Below, piece after piece: positions 11,729 through 20,208 of a DNA stretch of 64,000 nucleotides (within the stretch, counting starts at the first letter, position 1; the number at the start of each line of letters is the position of its first letter). Both the position numbers and the translations under genes were made by a program. The stretch lies in the NCBI GenBank assembly GCA_009838195.1, contig VXSC01000031.1, positions 1 through 64,000 on the forward strand, written 5' to 3'. Under the pieces are notes generated by a model. That model had not been told where the DNA came from and ran no database searches. It saw only the letters and a list, made by a program, of their open reading frames with translations. The DNA is from Rhodothermaceae bacterium (lineage in GTDB: Bacteria; Bacteroidota; Rhodothermia; Rhodothermales; Bin80).

Positions 11729-12607
11729 TTAATCCCAGCCCCTCTCGTATTGACTTACAGCTTCTTCAGCCCGATAAATCAGATTGATCTCGGACGCAGA
11801 TTCAGCTAGGTCATCAGTTCCGCGTATGCATTTCTTCGCCTCATGCAGAAATAGTCGATTTAGTTCCTGGATAAGAGACCTGAAATTAGGTTTATCCGAT
11901 TCCTTAAGATTTTCCCATTTCTGGCCCGTCAATGCCCAAGCAGCAGAAATCGTTTCGATCATGAGCTCATCTTCCTTCCAATAGATCGGCTCGTGCGATT
12001 GCATTCCAGACCTCACCAAATTTACCAACCTACAATAAGCGAACGTATGGATACAATACAGAGCGTAAACGTTGTCGCTTACAAAAGGACGAATCTCGTT
12101 CAGAAAGCCAGGGAACGTTCCCACCATAACAGACAAATCACTGGCCGGGTATGTACACGTACTCTTGTCCTGTCTTGGAAAAAAAACCTCCTCTAATTTG
12201 CCTTCCGAAGCGAATTCTATTAAGGCCTCCCTCACTCGCTTCTTGGAACTAGTCGGATCTTTGATTGCCTCAATTAACTCGTCTTTTGTCAGAATCGACA
12301 CTATAGCAGCTTGCGAGGCAAATGTCCGCTGTAAATGCAGAATATCCTTCCAGAGCAATTCTACTGATTCAATGGTCTTATCTCGAGAACTGTCGCCAAT
12401 TCTACTGGCGATATCCATTGAGTTGGTTAGCGAGGTCGTGTGCGCTTTAAGTATGGAGTCAAGCTTTACGAGCTCACGTTTGTGTGTATACTCAATGCGC
12501 TTGCCAATTATGTCTATTGCACCCGGAATCAATTTCTTGATAACGGCCCACAATACCACGGCCACTGTTGCCCCTGCGCCAATTATGGATCCTATGATTC
12601 CTAACAT
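11729..12607 (-). CDS. Uncharacterized N-terminally membrane-anchored protein
   Basis: A 292-residue protein with one N-terminal transmembrane helix (GSIIGAGATVAVVLWAVI, about residues 5-24), then a basic and helical linker with likely coiled coil (RELVKLDSILKAHTTSL), and a helical cytoplasmic domain containing WKDILHLQRTF and ENLKESDKPNF. No family is recognised. It lies 131 bp downstream of the giant repeat/PIN-like gene in the same orientation. A membrane anchor next to a large soluble repeat protein would suit a sensor-effector pair, but this is inference from position. Confidence 0.65.
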   Translation of the reverse strand: MLGIIGSIIGAGATVAVVLWAVIKKLIPGAIDIIGKRIEYTHKRELVKLDSILKAHTTSLTNSMDIASRIGDSSRDKTIESVELLWKDILHLQRTFASQAAIVSILTKDELIEAIKDPTSSKKRVREALIEFASEGKLEEVFFPRQDKSTCTYPASDLSVMVGTFPGFLNEIRPFVSDNVYALYCIHTFAYCRLVNLVRSGMQSHEPIYWKEDELMIETISAAWALTGQKWENLKESDKPNFRSLIQELNRLFLHEAKKCIRGTDDLAESASEINLIYRAEEAVSQYERGWD

Positions 12608-12738: not shown

Positions 12739-15700
12739 CTAAGTTGGTAGGGATTTTATTAATTGCTGAGCAATTAACTGTACGCGAAGAGGAGCAGCTA
12801 ATCCAAAGCGATTGATGACTTCCTCCTCGTTTGGAAGAATTTTGTCCGAACCTACACTTGCCAACTCTTCCACGAGACTTTGAATTGTATTACTCCACCA
12901 AGTCGGGCGTTCATTGTTATTTGGAAGTTGGCGAACCACCTTCAATATTGCCGTCAAGGTGAGTGCAATACCAATATCATCACCATTAAGACCAAATGCA
13001 AACGGATCAAATGCATCAATAATGGGAACATCTGCTGTATCCAAGTCAAGTTCCTGAACCGCTTTAGTAGCTGATTCGGCTGCATTTGATAATCCTCCCA
13101 TTAGACCAATCAAAGCAATCTGGAGCTTGGTTGCCATAAGCCATACGTGCTCTAACCATATTGCCCGAGGATCTTCTACCTGATCGAACGCTTCCCGATG
13201 TTTATGTCCACTGCAGATGAACGAAGCAAGTAATAATGCCGCTGACGCGAGTTGACGGCGATCAATCATCCGTTGTTCAATTTCAGAAGGCTGGTTGACA
13301 TTTGGGGCGAGTGCGATTGTTATATAATTGGTGGCCCAGTCTAAAACCTTAACAGCATGCCCATTGATATTCAACTCAAGGTCTTGGTTTACCGTCGAAA
13401 GACTCAAGAGGACTGCGCGGAGTGCCCAGGCAGCAACAAATGGATCATTTGCATTTTCAGCAGCACGTACTTTGTCTTCCAGCCATTCTGTCAATTCTGA
13501 TGCAGTCGTATTTTGCGTGTCCTGATCGTCGCCCGCATTAATTAGACGCTCAATGTGTTCCAGTACGAGATTCCCGTCATCAAATAGCTCTGTCAGCAGG
13601 GCACGTCCAATAAAATGCTCTATGGGCACCAATAAAGATCCGATCTGCCATACTTTGGGCTTTATCTGATGATTGGCCAAAGCTTGAGCGGCCTCTTCTC
13701 CAATCCAACCTATGAACTGAGAAAAAGCATCTGCATCATACTGGTTAAAGCGCCGCACAGCATGGACAAGATTACGCTGGAGATCAAAGTACCCGCTTTG
13801 CAGCAATTCGATCGCGACGATGTCACGGGCCTCTCTTGTTTTTTCTGGATTGCCACTGAGCAAGGCATCTTTTTGCAATAAGATCAGGTAAGCAAGAGCG
13901 GGGTCAACGGAAGATAGATGGAAGATGAGGAAATGAATTACTACCTCTTGAAGTTCGGGCGGACCATTCCATATTAGCGAGAAAAGCGAACAGCGAACTT
14001 TTATACGGAGTTCTTCTTCTGCCGGAAAGCCTGCATCTATCCAGCTTACCGGAACTTGATGTGAGTAACTGAAGACCACATCGGTGGCATGAATTAATCT
14101 TTGGAAATCCGAATCACCAGATACTGCACGCCATACAACCTCGGCTGCAGCACTCTCTTTTTGTTCTTCGGGAATCTCCAGTAGGGTACCCTCCCTATCG
14201 GATGTAGCGTAGATTTGCGTATTAATTCGTCCATCCCGATCAAGTTGGGCCAAGAAACCAATCGTCCTACGCATAAGAGGATCGAGTGCGTTGATGAGTT
14301 CCGTATCGGTAAGTGGAGTGAGTCCGGGAACTACATAGGCAGCTATAGCTTGTGATAACCTTTCCATTTCATTGCATTCCCGCAGAATCTTCAGGACAGG
14401 ATTCAATGAATCAAGCACATTATCTTCAAGTACCCGAACAATAGTTTCGAGTTTATCATCCCGTTGAGCCACTGCTTTTCCAAACCAGCGGAGTGCATCA
14501 TAGCGAAGTTCAATTTTACTATGATCTTGAATTGTCTGAAGTCCAATGATCACCCCTCTCCAAAAAGAGAAGCGGGTAAGATCAAATCGAGATTCCGTAG
14601 GCTTGGGAGTTACCTCTTCAAAAACCGACTCAACAGCTTCCAAAAATGCATTAGCAAGCGCAGAGCGCTCATCATCACCGAGTTCATCTGTTTCCCAGAT
14701 ACTAACAATAAATTGCCCTGCCACATCATTTGATACGAGACGAATGAATCCGTCCCTATTTCCATAAAGGTCGTTGAAGGTCTCCGTGAAATACTCTGGA
14801 ATTTCTGTAATTGCATGGACGAGCTCCTGAAAAGGAGGTGTGAGTTGGGGCGAAATCGGCACTGGATACTGACGGAGAGTATGTGTAAGGATTAATGGGG
14901 GTACTATGCGATATCCTTGCGAGAATAGTTTGGCAGCAGCATCCTGTGCCACAGTTGAAGGCAGGTGTCCAACCGAAGAAACTTGATTAAGAAGTTCTAG
15001 GGTTGATATCGGGGGTATCGCCGCACCCCAATCAACAAAGGGATCGCGAATTTCATTAACGCCGGTTCCCATATTCTTGGGGCCTCCAAAACTGAGTAAC
15101 AATGAATAGAAACGGTCGTCCGCCCAGAGCTGAAGTCCCTGAGATTGCGCCGTGCGCAGCGATTTGATAGCACCCAACCATAACTTCTCAATGGGCAGAG
15201 CTTCTTCGCTAGGCTTGTCGGTTGCATCCTCCGGTGTTTCAGTGTTGACACCCGCTTCAATCTTGACGAGAATACCCTCATCAAGTGCCGCTTGCAGCAC
15301 CCGTCTCGTATCCTTTAGCCGTTCGCAGGCTAATTCCATGGCTTCCTGGCGCTCAGCCTGTTCAGAAATTTGAATCCATGCCCATGGTCCTACTTTGACA
15401 CGATTTCCCAACACATTGGCCAATCCAGAGTCTACCCAAGCCAGAATTGAGTACTCATCAAATACGATCGCCTCGGGAATTGGTCGGGGCGTCTCCGTAT
15501 TCCATCCTTTAAAAGCATTAGAATGCTTTTTCGACACATCCATTGCTTCATCTGTCGTAACTTCTCCAGCTTCGTTGAGCGAGGCTAAAAGGACTGCCGA
15601 CGAGATCCTTAAACGATTTGCCTCTTCTGGCCAGCCATCAGAATTGCCTAAATCTGTGACGTAGAGTGCGTCGTACAAAACCGCAACCCCGAGATCTACA

Positions 15701-18700
15701 CGACACGGTCCAAGGCTTGGATTATCTGGTGCCTCCGCTTCAATTTCCCTAGAGTAAGGGACTATAGAATCCGGTCTCTGACGAAAAAAATGAACTGCCT
15801 TGATTTGAGGGATGGCATTACTAGTGAGTAATTCTTCGTTGATTCGAGTTATATCCCTACCCAACTCTTCCGATATCCCCGAATGAACGTAACTTTCTCC
15901 CAAGGCGATCAAAATTTGGTTTGCCGTTTTCGGGCCTAAAACGCCGAGTGTTAGGATTGCTGTTTGATCAAGAAATAGCTTCGTGTCTCCATCATTGCGC
16001 TGTTGATCATATCTTGAGTGTGCATACCGGGAGTTTGTAAGTATAAAGTAGTCTCTAAAAGATTTCTGACCCTTGGAACCTCGCTTCTGAAATTGTTGTG
16101 TCCAATAAGTCCAGATTTCCCAGGATGATCGTCCAGAATGGTGAAAAAAATCAGTATATGAGAGCGCATGTGCACGAAGAAGCTTTCCCAGAAATTCGGA
16201 TCTTTCCCTATCCTCTTGGACCATATTGGCCAAGAATTCAAGACCTCCTTTTATCCAGACACCGCGATTCTCACCTGCTTCGAGCATGGCTTGAGAAAAG
16301 TCATCCTCTGTCACTACGACTTTTACAGGCATCTCTGCTATCATTGCATCGAAGTAACGTTCCGCTTCTTGTTCCCTTCCAGCGGCTCGTGCTGTATGCC
16401 AAGCCTTTTGAGCAATGTTGGGATCTGGTTGCAGATTATATGCCTGAGCCAACAAATCAAACGCTATTGATGCGTGTTCCTGTGAACCTGGTGCCTGATC
16501 GTGGATTGACTGTGCGTATATAAGCAAGATGTCAGGATCTTGGGAGCCAGAATTAATGTGCGGTTCAAGTAGAATTGCAGCTTTTTCCGGTCGATTTTCG
16601 ATTAAGAGAAAACGACCCGCATTGACGACAAAATGAATAGACTCGGGATATAAATTACTGGCAGAAATAAAGCAATCAATAGCCTCAGTCGTTCGACCAA
16701 GCCCGATAAGTGCCCACGCTTCAAATTCGGCGGCCTTCTCGGCATAGATTGGATCAAGATCTTGACTAATTGTTAGGAGTTCCTCGTAACGCCGGGCAAC
16801 GTACAAGGCCTGAGCGTAAAGGAACCTCGATGATCTAGATGGCAGAATTTCCACCAGACGAGTAGTCCAGTAAACAGCCTCTTCAGCATAATTCAAGTCG
16901 GTTTCGTCCGGTGGAGCGCTTTCTGGAGAGGTAGATTTAACAGCAGATAGAGTAAACTGGGCAAGATGCTCAACCACATCTACATCCAACGGAAATGCAT
17001 CAACTTCGTTGACTATATCAAGGGGTGTTTCATGGGTAGGAAGATTCTCAGCACGAACGAGCCAATTTTCTGCGGGTCTTAAAGGTATGGCATCAATCAG
17101 TCGCCGTGCCTCCTCAGTTCGATTCGTTCGGCGTAAATGTTGTGCGAGGAGACGAAGTGCATACTTCCTTTTCTCTTTCTCTACGCTTGCAAAGAGTGCT
17201 TCATAGAGCTCAGCCTCAATGTTTTCTGGTAACGCCGAGTCTTGATAAAACTCTGCTTTCAGGATTGTAGCCATATTGGCATCAAAATGGCCTTCACTCT
17301 GAAGAAGATGTATTTTGTTTAGTGGTGAACTTGCACCATATAGCGGGAAAACAGATGAACGAATTTCTTCGTCTAACATATCAACCCCGCTCATAAATCG
17401 CTCATTGAGTTCACGATCTCTGAGAAGCTCAGCAACCATACGAAGACAGCCGAGAGCTTGTGCTCGGAAGAAGGAGTCATTCTCGGCTGTCTCTAATGCC
17501 ACATCTATGCGATCAATCAAATTGTTGGCGAGAAGACCACGATCGTAATCAAGGGGAGTGTATTCTGTAATTACTCGTTTGAATAGGTCAAGTGTTAGCT
17601 GAGCACGTTTAAGATTAACGATCGCATGAGTGATGTCACCGTCAGTTTGCAGTAAGAGGTCAGCCGTAAGTTCCACTGCTCCGGCATCTTTGGCATCTAT
17701 GATATAAAGACGAGCCTCGACACGATGGAGGATCTGGTCTGCACTCTGGACATCAGCAAGTAGTTCATCTATCTTGTACCAATCTTTTTTGAGATAGGCA
17801 AGACAAGGAGCCGCGGTCTTTCGGTACACTTCGCTTTCCTTGTCCATCTCCTTCATAAAGTGTTGGAGTTCGTCTTTGAGTCCAACATTAAAGAGTGTTA
17901 TCACGGCCTGCTCATGCCATTCGGGAGCAATTGCCCCCAACTTATGAGCACGCCACCAATATTCACGTCCAGATTCAATATCACCCTGCCAACAAGCTGC
18001 CGACGCAGCCGCAAACAATAGCCGCTGACGATATGTGCGCAGTTCCACTACAGAATGATATTTTGAACCGTTGTCTTTTCCTATAGCAGCATCAATGGCA
18101 TTAATGTATCTTTGGGCGTAGGCAAGTGCATCCTTGGCTTCCCCCTCCTTCATGAGTTTTGATAACCCATCAAGACTTGGTTCGATGATCGCGGCTAGTA
18201 TTGGGGATGGAAGGTTTTTCTTGTTAAGAACAGTTTCAAGTCCAGGGTCATCTTGGCCTACCTTTACATCAGTACGTTGCTGAAGCAATCCCTCTATTCG
18301 ATTGATTCCCTTGAGAATTTCAGAGCGGTCTTTTGCAGCTTTTTGAAGTGACAGGTCCCGGTCTAGGGCGCGTAACCTGGTCTGATCAATGGCATCATAA
18401 AATTTTTCAATAAATAAATCTGCGGCCCCTACGGGCACCTCGGGAGATTCATCAAATCCTTCAAGAACAAGGTCATCAGTGGTGAGACGCTCTCCCCGGG
18501 CAAATGTCGACAGCAGGAGTTTTTCGTGGTTGATTTCCCGATCAATGAAGGTCGAGCCAGACATACCGTAATCGTCACCGAAGTGCTTGTGGAATTCCAG
18601 CTGGGCATAACCAATAGCTTTAGCAATCTCTTTTATAGCCTTCTTCTCAGTCTCATCCGGGGGTCTGTTTAGAAGTTTCTCGGCTATCGTGATTAAAATC

Positions 18701-18717
18701 GGCAATATTATCTCCAT
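12739..18717 (-). CDS. Giant (1992-residue) TPR/helical-repeat protein with two PIN-like segments
   Basis: A very large, mostly helical, soluble protein. Residues 1-160 form a conserved-looking helical head (LDRDLSLQKAAKDRSEIL). From about 170 to 800 there are TPR-like helix pairs, clearest at EAWALIGLGRTTEAIDCF and FLLIENRPEKAAILLEP. Two PIN-like segments follow. The first runs from D917 (LFLDQTAILTLGVLG) through E950/E951 (SGISEELGRD) to D1016/D1022 (LYDALYVTD). The second runs from D1087 (IVFDEYSILAW) to D1200/D1201 (LWADDRFYSLLL). These acidic positions mimic the metal ligands of PIN nucleases. Residues 1280-1992 are another helical array. Such repeat-plus-nuclease layouts are typical of conflict proteins; both the PIN call and the function are inference. 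Confidence 0.75.
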   Translation of the reverse strand: MEIILPILITIAEKLLNRPPDETEKKAIKEIAKAIGYAQLEFHKHFGDDYGMSGSTFIDREINHEKLLLSTFARGERLTTDDLVLEGFDESPEVPVGAADLFIEKFYDAIDQTRLRALDRDLSLQKAAKDRSEILKGINRIEGLLQQRTDVKVGQDDPGLETVLNKKNLPSPILAAIIEPSLDGLSKLMKEGEAKDALAYAQRYINAIDAAIGKDNGSKYHSVVELRTYRQRLLFAAASAACWQGDIESGREYWWRAHKLGAIAPEWHEQAVITLFNVGLKDELQHFMKEMDKESEVYRKTAAPCLAYLKKDWYKIDELLADVQSADQILHRVEARLYIIDAKDAGAVELTADLLLQTDGDITHAIVNLKRAQLTLDLFKRVITEYTPLDYDRGLLANNLIDRIDVALETAENDSFFRAQALGCLRMVAELLRDRELNERFMSGVDMLDEEIRSSVFPLYGASSPLNKIHLLQSEGHFDANMATILKAEFYQDSALPENIEAELYEALFASVEKEKRKYALRLLAQHLRRTNRTEEARRLIDAIPLRPAENWLVRAENLPTHETPLDIVNEVDAFPLDVDVVEHLAQFTLSAVKSTSPESAPPDETDLNYAEEAVYWTTRLVEILPSRSSRFLYAQALYVARRYEELLTISQDLDPIYAEKAAEFEAWALIGLGRTTEAIDCFISASNLYPESIHFVVNAGRFLLIENRPEKAAILLEPHINSGSQDPDILLIYAQSIHDQAPGSQEHASIAFDLLAQAYNLQPDPNIAQKAWHTARAAGREQEAERYFDAMIAEMPVKVVVTEDDFSQAMLEAGENRGVWIKGGLEFLANMVQEDRERSEFLGKLLRAHALSYTDFFHHSGRSSWEIWTYWTQQFQKRGSKGQKSFRDYFILTNSRYAHSRYDQQRNDGDTKLFLDQTAILTLGVLGPKTANQILIALGESYVHSGISEELGRDITRINEELLTSNAIPQIKAVHFFRQRPDSIVPYSREIEAEAPDNPSLGPCRVDLGVAVLYDALYVTDLGNSDGWPEEANRLRISSAVLLASLNEAGEVTTDEAMDVSKKHSNAFKGWNTETPRPIPEAIVFDEYSILAWVDSGLANVLGNRVKVGPWAWIQISEQAERQEAMELACERLKDTRRVLQAALDEGILVKIEAGVNTETPEDATDKPSEEALPIEKLWLGAIKSLRTAQSQGLQLWADDRFYSLLLSFGGPKNMGTGVNEIRDPFVDWGAAIPPISTLELLNQVSSVGHLPSTVAQDAAAKLFSQGYRIVPPLILTHTLRQYPVPISPQLTPPFQELVHAITEIPEYFTETFNDLYGNRDGFIRLVSNDVAGQFIVSIWETDELGDDERSALANAFLEAVESVFEEVTPKPTESRFDLTRFSFWRGVIIGLQTIQDHSKIELRYDALRWFGKAVAQRDDKLETIVRVLEDNVLDSLNPVLKILRECNEMERLSQAIAAYVVPGLTPLTDTELINALDPLMRRTIGFLAQLDRDGRINTQIYATSDREGTLLEIPEEQKESAAAEVVWRAVSGDSDFQRLIHATDVVFSYSHQVPVSWIDAGFPAEEELRIKVRCSLFSLIWNGPPELQEVVIHFLIFHLSSVDPALAYLILLQKDALLSGNPEKTREARDIVAIELLQSGYFDLQRNLVHAVRRFNQYDADAFSQFIGWIGEEAAQALANHQIKPKVWQIGSLLVPIEHFIGRALLTELFDDGNLVLEHIERLINAGDDQDTQNTTASELTEWLEDKVRAAENANDPFVAAWALRAVLLSLSTVNQDLELNINGHAVKVLDWATNYITIALAPNVNQPSEIEQRMIDRRQLASAALLLASFICSGHKHREAFDQVEDPRAIWLEHVWLMATKLQIALIGLMGGLSNAAESATKAVQELDLDTADVPIIDAFDPFAFGLNGDDIGIALTLTAILKVVRQLPNNNERPTWWSNTIQSLVEELASVGSDKILPNEEEVINRFGLAAPLRVQLIAQQLIKSLPT

Positions 18718-18952: not shown

Positions 18953-19384
18953 CTAAGGTGATTTACCTGGATGGATATCTTCGGCATGAACCAGTTCAGA
19001 AATCTCAGTGGATATTAATTCATCAGAAGCGGTATACCCGAAGACACCACTGTGAGATGGGTCATTTTGTTCGGGTAAGTGAATGATTTTTGCGGGGAGG
19101 TCACTGTTACGGAGAATCACTTCCTTAACCATACCGACCTGTAACGAAACAAACTTGCCGTTACGCCTAACTCCGAACTTCTTTTCCCGAAAAGCTTGAC
19201 GAACATAGTCTATAGCTTGGGGCAAGTCGGTGGTCTCGAAAAACTCAAGCCAGTTCACTGACAAATGATCGTCCCTGTCCCTGAGTTCAAATGCAGTTGC
19301 AAGCGGCAGACCGTCATCGCCAATGGCTGAAGGCTTGCAATATCTAGCAACGTGGTGATCTTCGCCTATCTCTAAACTGGACAT
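18953..19384 (-). CDS. Uncharacterized protein of a recurrent two-gene module (small partner)
   Basis: A 143-residue acidic soluble protein. Readable blocks are VARYCKPSAIGDDGLPLATAFELR, split here as VARYCKPSAIGDD and LPLATAFELR, then LSVNWLEFFE, FGVRRNGKFVSLQVG and a C-terminal NDPSHSGVFGY. From memory the xxRYC, LSVNWLE and DPSHS blocks recur in unnamed proteins of many bacteria, encoded beside a partner like the next gene. No biochemical role is known to me. The gene starts 2 bp after the stop of the 273-residue gene, so the two form one operon. Confidence 0.7.
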   Translation of the reverse strand: MSSLEIGEDHHVARYCKPSAIGDDGLPLATAFELRDRDDHLSVNWLEFFETTDLPQAIDYVRQAFREKKFGVRRNGKFVSLQVGMVKEVILRNSDLPAKIIHLPEQNDPSHSGVFGYTASDELISTEISELVHAEDIHPGKSP

Positions 19385-19386
19385 TC

Positions 19387-20208
19387 CTAGCTATAGGAAT
19401 AATTGATGAAAGGCAGAATAGATTTCAGAGCGTGCATTTTTGTACCTGAACCCTGAATGGTCTGTCTGCCACCTTTGTCGCTCGTCGTTCCCGCAAAACG
19501 GGTATTCCCATCAGCTAAGAATTTCATTACCGCAGACGTCTTTTTTGAGCGCCATTCAGCCTGTAATAATCCGTTGGGGCTTATGCCAATCTGAGGGTAG
19601 GGTAACGACTTACCATCACCGATAAAAAACTGGGCCAATTCTCTTAGCGACATAAAATTCATGGCAGGATCTTCTGGATCATCATCCTGGGTGATTTCGT
19701 GCAGATATTTAAGGCGTTCTGCAATTTTCCGACGCCCCAAATGGTCTAGAATATCAAATATCTCCTGACTTTGAGTCGCATTATTAACTTGGGCTGCTGG
19801 ATCGGTTTTCCCAGTGATAATATCACTTGGATTCCCCTGGAATCGCACAGAGATATTTGTCGATAAACTATTCCAAAGCAGATTAATAGGATCTGAATTT
19901 CTATCCCTATTTCTAATGACTCTCGAAAAGACTTCTCTAGAAAACGATGAAGGTGAACACCTAATCGATTCATCTCTTGAAGCAACGGTATCCTTAGGCG
20001 TCGGTCTGGGACGAATTACTTGAATCCTTCGAGTGATAGGAGTGAACCCTCTGTCATCATTTTCCCCGATACTATGAAAAACCTCTCTGGAACTCAGTTC
20101 AGTGACATGAAATTTCACCTTGGGGCCTGAATATTCACTAATCCATGGACGCACATCAAGCACCTCATCTTCGATTGTGGAAATGCTATCTGAGTCTATC
20201 AACCCCAT
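19387..20208 (-). CDS. Uncharacterized protein of a recurrent two-gene module (large partner)
   Basis: A 273-residue protein. The N-terminal half is rich in charged and polar residues and looks poorly structured. The C-terminal third carries the conserved-looking part: LRELAQFFIGDG, LPYPQIGISPNGLLQAEWR, AVMKFLADGNTRFAG. I recall this pattern (PQIGxxPxGxLxxEW followed by a FxxDGxxxF strand) from unnamed proteins encoded next to homologues of the 143-residue gene. The module could be toxin-antitoxin-like or a defence accessory; nothing in the sequence decides this. It starts the operon, with 353 bp of non-coding DNA upstream. Confidence 0.7.
   Translation of the reverse strand: MGLIDSDSISTIEDEVLDVRPWISEYSGPKVKFHVTELSSREVFHSIGENDDRGFTPITRRIQVIRPRPTPKDTVASRDESIRCSPSSFSREVFSRVIRNRDRNSDPINLLWNSLSTNISVRFQGNPSDIITGKTDPAAQVNNATQSQEIFDILDHLGRRKIAERLKYLHEITQDDDPEDPAMNFMSLRELAQFFIGDGKSLPYPQIGISPNGLLQAEWRSKKTSAVMKFLADGNTRFAGTTSDKGGRQTIQGSGTKMHALKSILPFINYSYS

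Follow-up and report, generated by a model that had tools for sequence, protein, structure and literature searches.

The protein described here has a close precedent in architecture, the TPR-GreAB-C-PIN conflict proteins, in which the PIN domain has been proposed to cut transcripts at RNA polymerase (Kaur et al. 2021, PMC8195603). A split PIN acting alone has been described in DS-3, whose defence needs the catalytic residues (DefensePredictor, PMC13092281). We analyzed a window of 64,000 nucleotides from a Rhodothermaceae bacterium with a 3.0 Mb genome (assembly GCA_009838195.1, contig VXSC01000031.1, positions 1 to 64,000) and identified a giant gene, P0001, encoding a protein of 1992 residues. 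Predicted structures supported the presence of a PIN fold in the middle of this protein. The best reading of the structure models and sequence alignments was one PIN domain split by a conserved insert of ~190 residues, over the two tandem PIN domains proposed in the first-pass annotation of the window. The giant probably represents a variant, so far unrecorded, of the TPR-plus-PIN proteins, a group believed to act in the antiviral protection of bacteria.

Positions 12739-18717 formed one uninterrupted 1992-codon open reading frame (ORF) on the minus strand, and the plus strand of the same interval was closed by many stops. The protein had thus been placed correctly before, although no strand had been given. 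About ten homologues, the most distant ~25% identical, kept a frame of about 1870-2045 codons free of stops, indicating that the giant gene is real and not a chance ORF. The gene and its parts are as follows.

12739..18717, minus strand: giant gene P0001, 1992 aa, an open frame with homologues of long open frame in 9 of 245 Rhodothermia genomes.
18268..18717, minus strand: swappable N-terminal domain, residues 1-150, from identity to three members, at least three N-terminal types and a STAND-like match.
16318..18267, minus strand: TPR-containing helical region, residues ~151-800, from TPR-type Pfam matches, weak in the window copy and strong in homologues.
15793..16005, minus strand: predicted PIN N-half, residues ~905-975, with D917, from PF20698 positions 1-57 in L042 and L044 and the start of the structural match in both models.
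15223..15792, minus strand: putative insert between the PIN halves, residues ~976-1165, with D1008 and D1022, conserved and never matched by PF20698; its limits are inferred.
14938..15222, minus strand: predicted PIN C-half, residues ~1166-1260, with D1200-D1201-R1202, from PF20698 positions 94-132 in L041, L045 and L037 and the end of the structural match.
12742..14937, minus strand: C-terminal region, residues 1261-1992, kept in homologues.

Pfam detected no PIN domain in the window copy, which also had no match to PF20698 (PIN-TPR-GreABC). When residues 790-1310 were searched in eight members, PF20698 was the sole recurring Pfam family and was found in five of the eight, always below threshold. 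The first block of the profile fell on the D917 segment and the last on the LW(A/T)DDR segment, in the members listed above. These halves were ~200 residues apart in the giants, and the ~190 residues between them had a PF20698 match in no member where the ranges were shown. In P0013, a distant cousin, PF20698 positions 1-52 matched residues 1115-1169, and the motif LLVDDR occurred about 190 residues further on. Profile alignment of the giant family with P0013 gave as its two best matches exactly the two PIN halves. The highest score among 60 shuffles was 25.2, which the first match exceeded (26.8) and the second narrowly missed (24.3). The P0013 sequence suggests that the split PIN form is wider than Rhodothermia. 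P0013 itself (L022:683-5428, 1581 aa) belongs to another family of the phylum and has an alpha/beta-hydrolase N-terminus, TPRs and apparently the same split PIN.

We modelled residues 790-1310 with AlphaFold2, using eight sequences in the alignment. The model of the window copy had a predicted local distance difference test (pLDDT) score of 68.7 overall, with 80-97 over much of the core, and a predicted template modelling (pTM) score of 0.60. VIA-align ranked 1v8p first (Z 8.6, root-mean-square deviation (rmsd) 3.1, 128/135 residues aligned), followed by 1v8o, 1y82, 7vwo, 2mdt and then others, including the KHNYN PIN 9s2d. The model of the Balneola homologue, which is ~25% identical and was cut with tighter ends, had a pLDDT of 79.1 and a pTM of 0.68. 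It matched 1v8p with Z 10.4 (rmsd 3.8, 129/135 aligned) and 3ix7 with Z 8.9 (rmsd 3.8, 127/131), while the next row reached only 4.8. We take 1v8p, 1v8o, 1y82, 1w8i and 3ix7 to be PIN proteins, and 2mdt and 9s2d are named PIN in their own titles. The PIN-like fold predicted earlier for the middle of the protein was therefore recovered, with PIN proteins as the top structural matches of both models. In each model the ~130 aligned residues were spread over ~340, beginning at the strand that carries D917 and reaching the helix that follows the DDR motif; if the first PIN were self-contained, the match would have stopped at about model residue 265 in the window copy and 165 in the Balneola homologue. 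Taken with the two PF20698 half-matches, which are confined to the outer segments, this span across the insert favours one split PIN. The two models are not fully independent, since largely the same eight sequences were used for both.

Conservation was tallied across ten members. The PIN block had 7.0-8.4 invariant positions per 100 and the insert 7.4; the flanks had 2.8-3.8 and the N-terminal domain none. Four acidic residues of the PIN block were invariant (D917, D1008, D1200 and D1201), and D1022 was D in nine members and Q in one. Position 1087 was D in six members and S in four, and D1016 was D in the window copy alone among six members compared. The columns of E950 and E1119 were variable, and the canonical PIN glutamate is not kept. 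All the acids named in the first-pass annotation were at their stated positions and D917, D1200 and D1201 were indeed invariant, but E950, D1016, D1087 and E1119 were not conserved and D1008 had been missed. Since D1087 is replaced by S in four members, it is a poor mutagenesis target, and D1008 is the overlooked one.

Recovery of the homologues needed a profile of the PIN region. P0001 as a single query found no close relative in genome contigs, viral contigs or plasmids, and it had no match in NCBIfam, PADLOC, PHROGs or PDB sequences. The profile likewise found the giant family on no viral contig and no plasmid. The distribution of the family is patchy, with presence in the 9 of 245 genomes and up to three copies in one of them, where one copy is interrupted at the contig end. 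Along most of the length, homologues were 66, 66, 55, 47, 39 and 35% identical to the window copy. The copy interrupted at the contig end reached 40%, and for L011, L012 and L038 identity was 22-26% in partial alignments. The closest named relatives are Rhodothermaceae metagenome-assembled genomes (MAGs); a Rhodothermia bin and a Balneola MAG are among the rest.

Outside the PIN region, the N-terminal half was a helical array, as had been proposed; Pfam identified it as TPR in homologues, with TPR_19 at 3.6e-14 and 3.7e-10 in two of them and a weak TPR in the window copy. The N-terminal domain was common to four members, the three others being 39-51% identical to the window copy, and was replaced in the remaining members, so that at least three N-terminal types occur among the homologues. 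It was also present in WP_013060230.1 of the Salinibacter plasmid pSR56 (29% over 100 aa, E 1e-6). This protein, whose P-loop/STAND-like matches are weak, lies inside a type I restriction locus of the plasmid. The C-terminal ~700 residues, for which the first-pass annotation predicted a second helical array, were conserved in homologues, and residues 1310-1992 had no Pfam match.

Defence genes were present beside four homologues in total. One homologue adjoins an OLD-TOPRIM ATPase and UvrD helicase pair, which is Gabija-like, and one adjoins an Eco57I enzyme; the neighbours of homologues also include GmrSD N and C and a type III restriction subunit accompanied by a transposase. A conflict-type setting had been expected for the giant, and these restriction and Gabija-like genes agree with it, the defence function itself being predicted. 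Two small genes lie upstream of the giant in the window, on the same strand.

18953..19384, minus strand: gene B, P0002, 143 aa, with 43-59% identity to copies beside three other giants and a further copy in L039.
19387..20208, minus strand: gene A, P0003, 273 aa, N-terminus variable and C-terminus conserved, with 34-46% identity to copies beside three other giants and a further copy in L039.

The A-B gap is 2 bp and the B-giant gap is 235 bp; no structured RNA or conserved element was found in the latter. Both A and B were found with the giant at five loci (window, L009, L010, L013 and L039); tblastn detected neither at six others (L011, L012 and L035-L038). Neither had a Pfam match. A partially matched the PADLOC candidate PDC-M32A (E 1.7e-4). 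In the plasmid search B had at most a weak Rhizobium match (E 0.02) and the C-terminal part of A had none. A protein of 292 aa is encoded just downstream of the giant (window 11729-12607, minus strand); its N-terminus is hydrophobic, Pfam gave no match for it, and it did not occur beside other giants. The downstream gene P0004 was rejected as a system member, as it was not found beside other giants. In two distant members, from Balneola and the Rhodothermia bin, the giant gene overlaps at its end with a ~308-aa protein of no known family (L011:10661-11576 and L012:6096-7022); this partner is different from A and B, and it is split into two frames in L011.

We lean, with modest confidence, towards the giant being an autoinhibited sensor-ribonuclease (RNase) of antiviral defence and a relative of the TPR-GreAB-C-PIN conflict proteins; its architecture, PIN fold and conservation were shown computationally. 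The TPR and C-terminal scaffolds, perhaps with the N-terminal domain, would detect an infection signal or recruit partners, and the insert may prevent the two PIN halves from assembling into a functional metal site. On activation, a site built on D917 with D1200/D1201, possibly also D1008, would close and then cleave cellular or viral RNA, stopping the infection by abortive or direct defence. Several observations weigh against this reading. The best PF20698 score was 15.0 bits, as against a curated cut-off of 27.8, and hhalign of the PIN segments with a 4-sequence PF20698-type alignment was not significant. The check suggested earlier, AlphaFold followed by Foldseek, was run on residues 790-1310 and gave a divided answer: Foldseek alone found no significant match for either model, and the PIN fold was seen only by VIA re-alignment, which ranked PIN proteins first. 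The structural alignment yields range ends only, so the skipped middle elements are inferred. D1008 is invariant yet lies inside the insert, which is not expected of a pure spacer. The defence neighbours are a raw tally at four loci, and the surroundings of the window copy and of L041 are a polysaccharide locus common to both genomes.

An arrangement of two tandem PIN domains would make PIN1 (~905-1065, with D917, D1008 and D1022) catalytic and leave PIN2 (~1075-1260) degenerate, with DDR only. Secondary structure does run through the PIN strand-helix order twice, D917, D1008 and D1022 would make up a classical set and are invariant or nearly so, and a short motif of 25 columns recurs in the two C-halves. 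We nevertheless consider this arrangement rather unlikely, since the structural match covers both segments in both models, the PF20698 halves are confined to the outer segments, and D1087 is lost in 4/10 members; the PIN1 versus PIN2 profile comparison was also not significant, and internal duplication was rejected on this result. It is unlikely, too, that the insert is an internal copy of the PIN halves in swapped order, lending D1008 (and D1022) to a composite site with D917 and D1200/D1201, with the RNase assembled only when the sensor arrays join the halves, i.e. by fold completion. The loss of the canonical glutamate, a C-half without the usual acid of the preceding helix and the polysaccharide genes around the window copy would fit a PIN-fold scaffold that lacks nuclease activity and binds RNA or protein in a non-defence cellular role. 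Such a role appears improbable to us, given that ten divergent members all keep D917, D1200 and D1201 and that a housekeeping gene would not be expected to show a patchy distribution, paralogues and defence neighbours. The position of A and B, adjacent and upstream in five loci, could point to a toxin-antitoxin-like module, the giant RNase being restrained by A and/or B, but the six loci at which tblastn detected neither mean that they cannot be obligate antitoxins for the giant family, and we regard this explanation as very improbable.

If the split, autoinhibited RNase is the correct reading, the PF20698-type conflict proteins have relatives beyond those now recognized, overlooked by family models on account of the interrupted PIN. 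This reading would also provide a concrete switch, a split nuclease controlled by its insert, in a large defence-like scaffold. The residues of interest shift with it to D917 with D1200/D1201, and to D1008, away from D1087.

A true TPR-GreAB-C-PIN protein, P0010, is encoded on the same contig beyond the window (G000:C31:88465-92301, minus strand; locus L019:13466-17302). It has 1278 aa, a PF20698 score of 69.9 bits and a weak Cap4-nuclease-like N-terminus. Near it, L019:6264-12870 (contig about 81.2-87.9 kb) holds three large minus-strand ORFs of 1046, 524 and 587 aa, with sizes as in a restriction-modification set.

Compared with known systems, the giant shares the PIN fold with VapC-type PIN proteins such as PAE2754 (PDB 1v8p; Z 8.6 and 10.4 over ~128 residues), which differ in that they are small, stand alone as toxins or nucleases and lack TPR scaffolds. 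WP_013060230.1 of pSR56 has the giant's N-terminal domain and stands in a type I restriction locus, but carries a P-loop NTPase-like middle (weak matches) in place of TPR-PIN. DS-3, compared by description only, also has a split PIN; its halves are at the two protein ends, whereas both are mid-protein in the giant. The first-pass annotation knew of no named system with this layout. TPR-GreAB-C-PIN proteins do come close to it, and the giant lies outside them. Both are large proteins with a variable N-terminal domain and a TPR array before the PIN, and by its PF20698 half-matches the PIN of the giants belongs to the same sub-family. No GreA/B C-terminal domain was matched by Pfam in residues 780-915, and none was matched in P0010 or P0012 either. 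On the other hand, the giants reached at most 15.0 bits, below the cut-off, while the true members P0010 and P0012 scored 69.9 and 35.1. The PIN of the true members is continuous (~138 positions; 980-1121 in P0010 and 953-1088 in P0012) and that of the giant is split by ~190 residues. About 730 residues follow the giant's PIN, as against 157-182 in P0010 and P0012, and small partner genes are present in some giant loci. Since the giant's score is below the cut-off and its PIN is neither continuous nor C-terminal, we did not file it as a PF20698 member. The giant is probably a distant relative of the TPR-GreAB-C-PIN proteins and probably works alike.
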